This document shows positions 1,024 through 24,786 of a DNA stretch of 32,527 nt, piece after piece. Positions within the stretch are counted from its first letter, which is position 1, and each line of letters begins with the position of its first letter. Both the position numbers and the translations under genes were made by a program. Source of the stretch: an uncultured Thomasclavelia sp. Its GTDB lineage: Bacteria; Bacillota_I; Bacilli_A; Erysipelotrichales; Coprobacillaceae. Location: assembly GCF_944324745.1 (NCBI RefSeq), contig NZ_CALUXO010000009.1:1-32527 (forward strand), written 5' to 3'. Below the pieces are notes generated by a model that was not told the DNA's origin, made no database searches, and saw only the letters and a program-made list of their open reading frames with translations.

Positions 1024-1338
1024 ATGAAAAAAATATTATTAGCTTGTAATGCTGGGATGTCAACTAGTTTATTAGTAACAAGAATGCAAAATGCCGCTCA
1101 AAAAGAAGGCATTGAGGCTGAAATTAGTGCCGTAGGAGTTACTGAAGCTGAAAAAATATTATTAGATTGGGATATTGTTTTATTAGGTCCTCAAGTTGGA
1201 CACCAAGTCAAATTATTAACTGATCGAGCTGAAGGTAAGATTCCAGTTGAGATCATTGATATGCGAGATTATGGTTTAATGAATGGTGAAAAAGTATTGT
1301 ACGATGCCTTAGCTAAAATTGATGCTTTTAATCAATAG
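1024..1338 (+). CDS. PTS lactose/cellobiose-type EIIB component
   Basis: This 104-residue protein has the length and sequence of a stand-alone cellobiose/chitobiose-type EIIB, a cytoplasmic phosphocarrier that passes phosphate from EIIA to the sugar in EIIC. The phosphorylated cysteine is C8 in the LLACNAGMSTSLL loop. The second landmark, DIVLLGPQVGHQ, matches the family's conserved LLGPQ segment. The gene has an ideal RBS (AAAGGAGG, 1007-1014) nine bases before the ATG. No EIIA or EIIC gene is visible in the window, so its transport partner must be elsewhere, or it acts as a signal carrier. It lies 52 bases upstream of an interrupted RpiR regulator gene and upstream of a second protein with an EIIB-like domain. 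The substrate cannot be read from sequence. Confidence 0.93.
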   Translation: MKKILLACNAGMSTSLLVTRMQNAAQKEGIEAEISAVGVTEAEKILLDWDIVLLGPQVGHQVKLLTDRAEGKIPVEIIDMRDYGLMNGEKVLYDALAKIDAFNQ

Positions 1339-1390: not shown

Positions 1391-2251
1391 ATGATAAATA
1401 TATTTGTCGAGTTACAAAATAATTTGGATAAATTATCACATTATGAAAAGATAATTGCTGAATATATTTAAAAAAATCCTGATCGGGTTTTAACGATGAA
1501 CGCAAAAGATCTTTGTCAGCAATGTTCAGTTTCGCAAGCAACAGTCTATCGCTTGTGTAATAAACTGAATCTTAATGGTTTATCGGATTTAAAAGTTAGA
1601 ATTTCTAATAGTATTGATAGTTATATTCAAGAAAACCAGGATTTTGATTTTAATTTTCCGATAAAGCAATATCAAACTCATTATGGAATTATTGCCAAAA
1701 TTAAAGAGGACTATCAAAAAACGGTTGATTTTACTGCTAATCTATTTGATTTAGATGAATTACGTCATATTGTTCAGGCAATGAAAAAAGCTAAACAAAT
1801 CGATGTTTACACATCGGCTGGAAATATTTATTTTGCTGAAAATTTTAAATTTCAGATGCAGGAAATCGGTGTTAATGTCAATGTTCCTTTAGAAGAGTAT
1901 CAGCAAAGATTAACTGCTTCAATTGGAGATAAGAGGCATTTTGCAATCATGATATCATTTCAAGGTCGGGGAATTTTAAGTGATATTTTACCAAGAATTA
2001 TCAAGGAAAGAGGAAGTAAGTTATTACTGATTTCTGCATATGATTTTGATTTAAAAGATTTAAAACCAGATTATCGTCTATATATTAGCCATCATGAAAA
2101 TCATTATAAAAAGATTTCTTCTTATTCAACCAGGTTATCGATACTATTCATTTTAGATATTTTATATACCTGTTATTTTGAAACTAATTATGATGATAAT
2201 GTCAAAAAGAAAATTAATTATTATGATCTAATCGATAAATATAATAAGTAA
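1391..2251 (+). pseudogene. MurR/RpiR-family regulator interrupted by an in-frame TAA
   Basis: RpiR-type regulators have an N-terminal winged-helix DNA-binding domain and a C-terminal sugar-phosphate-binding SIS domain. The reading frame starts at ATG 1391 with a good RBS (AGGTGA, 1380-1385). It runs 26 codons ending in IIAEYI, meets TAA at 1469-1471, then continues open with KNPDRVLTM to 2251. Translating through gives about 286 residues, the normal family length. The flanks of the stop align with IADYIINNKEKVFDM in the second RpiR protein of this window, so the stop sits inside a conserved helix. The HTH (SVSQATVYRLCNKL) and SIS region (QIDVYTSAGNIYF, then FAIMISFQG) are otherwise intact. 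A restart at ATG 1496 would give 251 residues without the first HTH helices, and I see no RBS there. Pseudogene, very recent mutation or sequence error are all possible. Confidence 0.8.
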
Positions 2252-2287: not shown

Positions 2288-2881
2288 ATGGATAATTTTT
2301 ATCAGGATGTTAATTTTAAGATTTATAAGAAATGGATGGAAAATCTTAATATTCCCGGTGTTTCGATAAAAAACAATCCTCATGATTCTAGTGAAATATT
2401 TTTTAAAAAAGATGATATAGTTGGAATTTCAGCTTTTTATCGTGATTATCTAGTCGAACATGAAATTTTTAAAACAAACAATAAGCAAAGAATTTTTTAT
2501 GTTCATTACCAATTTATTAATTTTAAACAATCATTAGTGATATTTAACGATTATATTAAAATATTTAAAAACTATCATCATCAAAAAAAGCTTAAAGTAT
2601 TATTATGTTGTAGTGCTGGTTATACTTCTACTTATTTTGTAGATGGTATAAAAAAGTTTTGTAAACTGTTAAACATTTCGATTGAAATAGAAGCATCCAG
2701 TTATTTAACGATTAATCAAAAACTAGGTAATTATGATTTAATTTTATTAGCACCACAAATTGCTTATCTAGTACCTAAATTAATGGTTCAGGGATGTAAA
2801 AATATTTATGCGATTCCCCCAAAGATATTTGCGACCAATGATTATCAGCAGGTAGTAGAATTTATTTTGAAACATTATTAG
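2288..2881 (+). CDS. unassigned N-terminal domain fused to a PTS EIIB-like domain
   Basis: A 197-residue protein. From about residue 103 it has a lactose/cellobiose EIIB-like fold signature: VLLCCSAGYTSTYF with the phosphorylatable cysteine (C108), then YDLILLAPQIAYL, the family's LLGPQIAY segment. The first 100 residues match no family I recognise, but they resemble the N-terminus of the 23355-24764 protein. Both also share an IPPK(I/V)FA ending not found in standard EIIB. Start choice: ATG 2288 follows a purine-rich AAGGTGAGG; the in-frame GTG at 2279 would leave no room for an RBS. It lies 36 bases after the RpiR gene and probably shares its transcript with the EIIB at 1024. A role as a phosphorylation-state sensor or dedicated phosphocarrier is inference. 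Confidence 0.8.
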   Translation: MDNFYQDVNFKIYKKWMENLNIPGVSIKNNPHDSSEIFFKKDDIVGISAFYRDYLVEHEIFKTNNKQRIFYVHYQFINFKQSLVIFNDYIKIFKNYHHQKKLKVLLCCSAGYTSTYFVDGIKKFCKLLNISIEIEASSYLTINQKLGNYDLILLAPQIAYLVPKLMVQGCKNIYAIPPKIFATNDYQQVVEFILKHY

Positions 2882-23187: not shown

Positions 23188-23199
23188 GTTAATACGATG

Positions 23200-23227
23200 A
23201 AGACTGTTTAATAGACAGTCTTTTTTT
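23200..23227 (+). terminator. terminator of the uvrB-lgt operon
   Basis: AAGACTGT (23200-23207) pairs with ACAGTCTT (23215-23222) around a 7-base loop, followed by T residues. Confidence 0.88.
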
Positions 23228-23354: not shown

Positions 23355-24764
23355 ATGATGGATGAATTTTTAAAAGATATTCACACACTAGTATTTTATT
23401 ATTGGGTTTTAAATCAAACTAATAGTTTTTATCGGTGCTTTAAAGGAAAAGAAAATGAAATTATTTTAGAAACTGATAATAGTCAGGGAATAATTACTTT
23501 TAATAAATTTAATATTATTGAATTAACAGTTATTAATAAAGTAAAACAACAACCAGAATTTTATTTACATTTTCAAATGAAAAATCTTAATCACGCTAAG
23601 ATGTTATTTGAGGAAATGGTGGAAACTATTGCCAAGGTTTCTAATACTCCAGCGACAAAAATATTACTATGTTGTTCTGGAGGGCTAACAACAGGCTTTT
23701 TTGCCCAAAAAATCAATGAAACGGCTAAATATTTAGATTTAGATATTGAAGCTAATGCGACAAGATATCTAGATGTTTATGAAAAAGGAGTCGATTATGA
23801 TTATATTTTATTAGCACCACAGATTTCATATTTATGTGCTAATATTCAAAAGGTATTAAAAAAACAAAAAGTTTTAAATATTCCTCCAAAAGTATTTGCT
23901 AAATATGATGTGTTAAAAATTTTAAGATTTATTAGTAATAATAGTAATGATAATTTAAATCTTAATTTTGATCATAGTCGATTATTAATCAAACGTAACA
24001 TAAAACTTGATACGATGATACTATGTATTTCTATTTATCAAAATAGTTCAAAAGTTTATATTGATTATCGTATCTATGATAATAACAAGCAAATTATTCA
24101 TGAAAATGAAATTATTAAACAAACAATTGCCATTGAAGATATTTATGATGTTTTAGATATTGTTTTAGTTCAATATCCAGCTATTAAGAAAGTGGCTATT
24201 TCAATGCCGGGAATTATTAATGATGGTCATGTTGCCAGCTCTTTTGTCAAAAATGCTAATAATCGGGATATTAAACAAGATCTTCTAGATCGATATCATA
24301 AAGATTTTATTATTGCTAATGATATTAATGCAGCTGCAATTGGTTATTATGGGGTGCAAGATAAAATTAATTCTTTTTGTTTTTTATTTCAGCCAATTGG
24401 GATTGATGCTGGTCTAGGGACAGTTATTAATGGTGAGTTGATTCAGGGAAATTTTCATTTAGCAGGTGAAGTTAAGTTTTTACCACTGGCATTGTCTGAT
24501 GATCGCAATAAATTAAATAAGACACCAGAAGGGATAAATGAATTGGTCTATAAGATGATTATTGCTATTTCTAGTATTATTGCCCCAAGGGTTTTTGTTA
24601 TTTATAGTGATTTAGTTGCAGATGTTGCTTATTTAAAAGAAAAAGTAGAAGCCAGGTTTAATCAAGAAGTTGCTGGTTTTAAAATTGAAATTTACAAAGT
24701 TGAAAATCTTCAAGAGTATATTTTAGCGGGATTAATGATGTTATGTGCTAAAGAAAGTGCTTAA
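23355..24764 (+). CDS. fusion of unassigned N-terminal domain, PTS EIIB-like domain and ROK-family domain
   Basis: A 469-residue protein with three parts. Residues 1-98 match no family I know but resemble the start of the 2288-2881 protein. Residues 100-190 are an EIIB-like domain: ILLCCSGGLTTGFF with the likely phospho-cysteine C107, YDYILLAPQISYL, and the IPPKVFA ending also shared with that protein. Residues 215-469 are ROK-like: VAISMPGII (280-288), the catalytic-Asp segment IANDINAAAIG (D323), GIDAGLGTVINGELIQG, and AGE at 370-372. The usual first phosphate loop (DxGGT) is not apparent at the domain start (SIYQNSSKVY), and the CxCGxxGC zinc motif is missing. The ROK part may therefore be a weak kinase or a sugar-sensing module. 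Two adjacent ATGs (23355, 23358) follow a weak purine-rich RBS. Confidence 0.82.
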   Translation: MMDEFLKDIHTLVFYYWVLNQTNSFYRCFKGKENEIILETDNSQGIITFNKFNIIELTVINKVKQQPEFYLHFQMKNLNHAKMLFEEMVETIAKVSNTPATKILLCCSGGLTTGFFAQKINETAKYLDLDIEANATRYLDVYEKGVDYDYILLAPQISYLCANIQKVLKKQKVLNIPPKVFAKYDVLKILRFISNNSNDNLNLNFDHSRLLIKRNIKLDTMILCISIYQNSSKVYIDYRIYDNNKQIIHENEIIKQTIAIEDIYDVLDIVLVQYPAIKKVAISMPGIINDGHVASSFVKNANNRDIKQDLLDRYHKDFIIANDINAAAIGYYGVQDKINSFCFLFQPIGIDAGLGTVINGELIQGNFHLAGEVKFLPLALSDDRNKLNKTPEGINELVYKMIIAISSIIAPRVFVIYSDLVADVAYLKEKVEARFNQEVAGFKIEIYKVENLQEYILAGLMMLCAKESA

Positions 24765-24786
24765 AAAATAATTTTAAGCACTTTTT
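24754..24786 (+). terminator. terminator of the EIIB-ROK fusion gene
   Basis: A perfect 13-base-pair stem, AAAGTGCTTAAAA (24754-24766) with TTTTAAGCACTTT (24772-24784), is followed by T. It begins inside the last codons and contains the stop. Confidence 0.88.

Follow-up and report, generated by a model that had tools for sequence, protein, structure and literature searches.

The closest described partnership of ROK and EIIB is that of Mlc and EIICB-Glc in E. coli (complex 3BP8), which act as one sugar-signalling unit under the control of EIIB phosphorylation, dephosphorylated EIICB-Glc sequestering the repressor Mlc with no small inducer (PMC3901232). EIIB-like domains with a conserved cysteine that serves regulation and not transport are also found in PRD regulators of the MtlR/LicR type, those of MtlR-type regulators being EIIB-Gat-like (PMC8560693). 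NagC/XylR-type repressors combine the ROK fold with a helix-turn-helix (HTH) domain, and the IIB-chitobiose/cellobiose proteins (ChbB/CelA) are transporter subunits of about 105 aa.

The window, a 32,527-nucleotide stretch of DNA from an uncultured Thomasclavelia sp. (Coprobacillaceae), encodes a protein that appears to share the principle of the E. coli pair. However, Mlc and EIICB-Glc are separate proteins and Mlc keeps its HTH and zinc motif, whereas here EIIB and ROK domains stand on one chain with an extra N-terminal domain (N-domain) and no HTH. Furthermore, the EIIB domain belongs to PTS_IIB and EIIB-Glc to a different Pfam family, PTS_EIIB (PF00367). Compared with NagC/XylR-type repressors, with which it shares the ROK fold and clade, the fused protein has the N-domain and EIIB (N+EIIB) where those carry the HTH, and it lacks the zinc motif; unlike MtlR/LicR-type regulators it has no PRD (no Pfam match), HTH or EIIA-like domain. 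The architecture was unfamiliar to an earlier note made from the sequence alone; indeed, no description of an EIIB-ROK fusion was found in the open-licence literature, nor any named family with the three domains, the best NCBIfam matches lying far below cut-off. The parts are known, whereas the combination and the N-domain appear to be new. The gene and its parts are as follows.

23355..24764, + strand: whole fused gene, N-domain, EIIB and ROK, 469 aa, likely start at 23358 (Pfam, AlphaFold)
23358..23648, + strand: N-domain, residues 2-98, alpha-beta5-alpha, acidic, with the invariant H72 (23568-23570)
23652..23960, + strand: EIIB domain of lactose/cellobiose type, residues 100-202, with the candidate phospho-acceptor C107 (23673-23675) in CSGGLTT
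23961..24011, + strand: linker, about residues 203-219, of low model confidence (pLDDT 58 around residues 201-210)
24012..24761, + strand: ROK-fold sensor domain, residues 220-469, with D323 (24321-24323) and E372 (24468-24470) kept
23199..23227, + strand: likely terminator, hairpin and T-run after the preceding lgt gene (z -4.7), not flagged by a simple scan
24752..24786, + strand: likely terminator where the fused gene ends, a strong hairpin with T-run (-15.3 kcal/mol, z -6.9) that a simple scan passed over

Positions 23355-24764 form a single open frame on the + strand, and the second ATG, at 23358, corresponds to the start in most relatives and is the likely start of the gene. The AlphaFold model of the full protein, built with 43 homologues, reached a pLDDT of 89.7 and a pTM of 0.73, with no reliable arrangement of the domains relative to each other. 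The protein consists of an N-domain, an EIIB domain and a ROK domain, on which Pfam cut-offs, AlphaFold and fold comparison agree. The earlier note had proposed one 469-residue frame joining EIIB-like and ROK-like domains and had asked for structure prediction, which returned both folds; its motifs were also correctly placed, namely C107 in CSGGLTT, LLAPQISYL, IANDINAAAIG (D323) and AGE (E372). The join is no accident of chance or assembly, for we gathered 63 distinct fused N+EIIB sequences and found the architecture again in most genomes of Coprobacillaceae. The terminator-like hairpin after lgt makes it likely that the fused gene is its own transcription unit and, lying between two T-run hairpins, it appears to be transcribed alone. 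No RpiR, EIIA or EIIC gene adjoins it in the window.

The EIIB domain was recognised by Pfam as PTS_IIB (PF02302) over residues 102-181 (E 1.3e-9, 39 bits against a cut-off of 23.6). Residues 100-202 superpose on IIB-chitobiose (2wy2) with Z 17.9, an rmsd of 1.6 Å over 103 residues and 27% identity; the fold and the cysteine loop are thus those of ChbB/CelA, but the domain is flanked here by two further domains and its scores fall far short of the ChbB/CelA family cut-offs, TIGR00853 (lactose/cellobiose PTS subunit IIB) giving 57.8 bits against an NCBIfam cut-off of 110. Among 96 distinct N+EIIB sequences, comprising fused and stand-alone forms, C107, G110, P155 and Q156 are invariant (96/96) and position 112 is always T or S (96/96), so the active-site loop reported as retained in the window protein is kept in all 96.

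The ROK domain matches PF00480 over residues 238-373 (E 3.9e-13, 50 bits against a cut-off of 22.9), and the fold of residues 220-469 resembles that of the ManNAc-kinase-like protein 4htl (Z 24.1) and of Mlc (3bp8, Z 19.6). Two motifs that the first reading had reported as lacking are indeed absent from the window protein and from the family at large: the DxGGT ATP-phosphate loop is found in none of 65 fused rows and none of six split members described below, and the zinc motif CxCGxxGC likewise in 0/65 fused rows and in no split member. In a profile search the NDxN and AGE motifs line up with their counterparts in ManNAc and GlcNAc kinases. Among 43 aligned fused proteins, N322 and E372 are each kept in 42 and the NDxN aspartate (D323 in the window protein) in 32. 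This pattern suggests that the sugar site is kept without use of ATP; in 8/43 the aspartate is replaced by Asn, which raises the possibility of a changed or missing site in some members. Pfam detected no N-terminal winged HTH in the fused protein, in line with the earlier note, which saw no DNA-binding domain.

Such a combination, with the ATP loop lost and the catalytic-type Asp and the Glu of AGE mostly kept beside an intact EIIB loop, could be read as a soluble sugar kinase using the EIIB phosphocysteine as phosphate donor in place of ATP. We find this hardly credible given the Asn in 8 of the 43 fused proteins and the same motif pattern in HTH-ROK regulators that have no EIIB, from which it follows that the pattern predates the fusion. 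The earlier idea of a sugar-sensing pseudokinase holds as regards the missing ATP and zinc motifs and the kept NDxN and AGE, but the sensor half of a transcription repressor is a more fitting description of the domain than a degenerate kinase, because its nearest relatives are HTH-ROK proteins already without kinase and zinc motifs. For the same reason an origin from a decayed ROK kinase was rejected. A wider group of HTH-ROK regulators without ATP and zinc motifs also occurs in these bacteria (L131-L138).

In six split loci an N+EIIB gene lies directly before, or overlaps, a gene encoding a winged HTH and a ROK domain of the same clade. The winged HTH exceeds the Pfam cut-off in one of three scanned partners (L050) and is weakly matched in the other two, and both split HTH-ROKs scanned against NCBIfam match NagC over the HTH end and the ROK part, one of them also matching Mlc. 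A division into two genes had been named in advance as a result that would speak against the fusion; such divisions exist, but as a sister lineage that links both parts functionally. In a maximum-likelihood tree of the ROK domains the fused proteins, including two broken fused genes, form one clade (support 98/94), which persists at 95/84 after long rows are dropped and with the two broken rows counted as fused, and the split HTH-ROKs adjoin it. The outside group of this tree consists of unlinked HTH-ROK regulators, and the root depends on which of them were sampled. In the N+EIIB tree the fused rows again form one clade (100/98), with later loss of the ROK domain in a few lines inside.

With other HTH-ROKs as root, the single fused clade implies that N+EIIB probably took the place of the HTH in one fusion event. 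In the simplest history, N+EIIB adjoined an HTH-ROK repressor gene before this exchange; the kinase and zinc motifs were already missing from the repressor relatives. At one split locus only N+EIIB is kept in four relatives of the same genus. N+EIIB is the constant part of the family, ROK was lost again several times, and on this history ROK would be an accessory sensor added to an N+EIIB core. Broken fused genes were also observed, in which ROK is separated, shortened or stop-interrupted while N+EIIB remains open (L116:5952-7360, L117:6910-7881 and L038:145-1566).

The shared clade raises a further reading, that the fused protein is a decoy or partner of HTH-ROK repressors, its HTH-less ROK domain entering mixed dimers under the gate of EIIB phosphorylation. 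ROK regulators are oligomers, and stand-alone HTH-ROKs of the wider clade are present in the same genome as the fused gene, but no partner was identified, and we consider this reading quite improbable.

The N-domain is present in 43/43 genomes of Coprobacillaceae, the host family. Among the matches listed, intact frames are mostly either about 200-250 aa long (N+EIIB) or about 470 aa long (N+EIIB+ROK). The genome of origin carries further full-length paralogues, one of them stop-interrupted, as well as stand-alone N+EIIB genes, with about ten N+EIIB-type copies. In a class sample of 395 genomes the full architecture was found outside Coprobacillaceae only in two genomes of a sister family, and a phylum-level draw of 392 genomes, overlapping the class sample, yielded no further full architectures. 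Named genomes with the family include Thomasclavelia/Erysipelatoclostridium, Massilimicrobiota, Stoquefichus, Longibaculum, Faecalibacillus, Eggerthia, Sharpea and Kandleria; it also occurs in rumen Selenomonadaceae (fused form) and in MAGs labelled Hungatella and Erysipelothrix, although MAG labels may be wrong. The Selenomonadaceae copies suggest transfer between lineages. In this group the fused gene was seen in tandem (L091:6953-10386 and L094:8926-11824), once with a stand-alone N+EIIB copy. A scan with the fused protein found no relatives in viral contigs.

The N-domain has no match in Pfam (residues 1-100) or NCBIfam. Predicted alone, it forms an alpha-beta5-alpha sandwich (pLDDT 94, pTM 0.86). 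Across the 96 distinct N+EIIB proteins H72 is invariant (96/96), Y70 is found in 94 and E56 in 92, and among the positions examined only C107, G110, P155 and Q156 of EIIB match the constancy of H72. The best solved fold matches, CyaY/frataxin (Z 8.9) and the TriTu immunity protein (Z 8.8), share the alpha-beta-alpha sandwich at 11-14% identity; these scores are borderline, Foldseek giving E 0.015 with no sequence-profile support, and type III secretion chaperones rank below both. The scores hint at a protein-binding sandwich, and we make no assignment.

Several other identities were considered for the N-domain. The mean net charge of about -5 speaks against DNA binding, which is made less likely also by the lack of an HTH and of any convincing fold match. 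Lac-type EIIA is a helical bundle, and the alpha-beta5-alpha model is unlike it, so an EIIA was rejected. PPR proteins of the PDB, whose 14-residue repeats were matched many times in profile searches, and viral fold matches, which were uncharacterised proteins with poor superposition, were set aside as well.

The genomic context was compared with 265 control positions, using 56 clusters at 60% identity and neighbours within two genes; since control positions are not independent, p-values are indicative. RpiR-type genes lie near 16/56 clusters against 16/265 controls (p 7e-6), a count that may be slightly high as some of these neighbours have HTH_6 without detected SIS and the one at L100 has no Pfam HTH_6 match. 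Ordinary EIIB genes were found near 6/56 clusters and 1/265 controls, and calcineurin-like phosphoesterases near 9/56 and 2/265, nearly all of the latter beside stand-alone N+EIIB. At the other end of the window, such a context is formed by three genes.

1024..1338, + strand: cellobiose-type EIIB of the ordinary kind (104 aa), followed downstream by the RpiR gene and the stand-alone paralogue
1496..2251, + strand: RpiR-type regulator (partial HTH_6 and SIS), adjoining the stand-alone paralogue; whole region 1391-2251
2288..2881, + strand: stand-alone N-domain and EIIB paralogue, about 197 aa

The RpiR gene at 1391-2251 carries an in-frame stop (1469-1471) in its HTH region, which suggests a damaged or misassembled gene; L119 has a seemingly intact relative at the matching place. 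Distant family members show a recurrent trio of N+EIIB (or the fused gene), calcineurin-like phosphoesterase and RpiR-like genes (L123:5089-6656, L125:7457-9027, L043:8283-10706 and L100:7407-8931). A 142-aa P-loop protein (L068:8872-9300) is encoded directly downstream of the fused gene and is kept in 11 loci of one orthologue group; although it is the commonest neighbour, no fixed operon partner is common to all copies.

In its 2.76 Mb the genome of origin holds about 40 HTH_6 (RpiR) genes over cut-off, EI-type genes, one EIIA-Lac/Cel at G000:C93:23658-23933 and about 21 PTS_IIB domains, roughly ten of which are of N+EIIB type. The fused protein could be the EIIB subunit of a working PTS, passing phosphate from EIIA to the sugar at an unlinked EIIC while ROK tunes it by binding the phosphorylated product. 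The fully kept EIIB loop, a fold very close to IIB-chitobiose and the ordinary EIIB, GH1 or bgl-type EIIBC genes that adjoin some copies would fit this. However, about ten N+EIIB-type copies face a single EIIA-Lac/Cel, inspection by eye recognised no EIIA or EIIC of lactose type next to the copies examined, ordinary EIIBs have no N-domain, split N+EIIB adjoins repressor genes and N+EIIB is enriched near RpiR genes, so a transporter subunit seems rather unlikely.

We favour, with a probability of roughly 55%, a soluble PTS-linked regulator that is neither a transporter subunit nor a sugar kinase and that acts on its partner by protein contact. C107 would receive phosphate from P~EIIA while its sugar is scarce and lose it during uptake, thus reporting PTS flux, while the ROK domain, derived from the sensor of a NagC/Mlc-like repressor, would bind a sugar or sugar phosphate without ATP. 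Both states together may alter the shape or surface of N+EIIB, which would then bind a partner through a putative contact face of the N-domain around H72, E56 and Y70; the likeliest partner would be a transcription factor, for instance of the RpiR or HTH-ROK kind. The whole would amount to an EIIB/Mlc-like sensing pair on a single polypeptide that leaves DNA binding to another protein. The constant active site, the split pairs with HTH-ROK, the RpiR genes nearby and the presence of PTS donors (EI-type, EIIA-Lac/Cel) speak for such a regulator; against it stand the isolation of the window gene, the Asn at D323 in 8/43, the very high number of RpiR genes and the non-independent controls. A bolder variant, which we hold to be highly improbable, would have C107 emptied into the fused ROK pocket or onto H72, an ATP-free phosphotransfer that would make the protein a soluble PEP-dependent sugar kinase or a Cys-to-His phosphorelay in one chain.

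Taken as a PTS-linked regulator, the fused protein suggests a two-input device reading uptake activity and internal sugar. If true, it would define a family of PTS regulators in which a single chain lacking a DNA-binding part combines phosphorylation driven by uptake with a sugar sensor of repressor type. Coprobacillaceae are common gut bacteria with up to about ten N+EIIB-type copies each. The N-domain is new to Pfam and NCBIfam, and its single histidine varies no more than the EIIB phosphocysteine does. If this reading holds, the family and the split repressor pairs would jointly represent a second alliance of EIIB and ROK, one that uses another EIIB family than EIIB-Glc/Mlc does.
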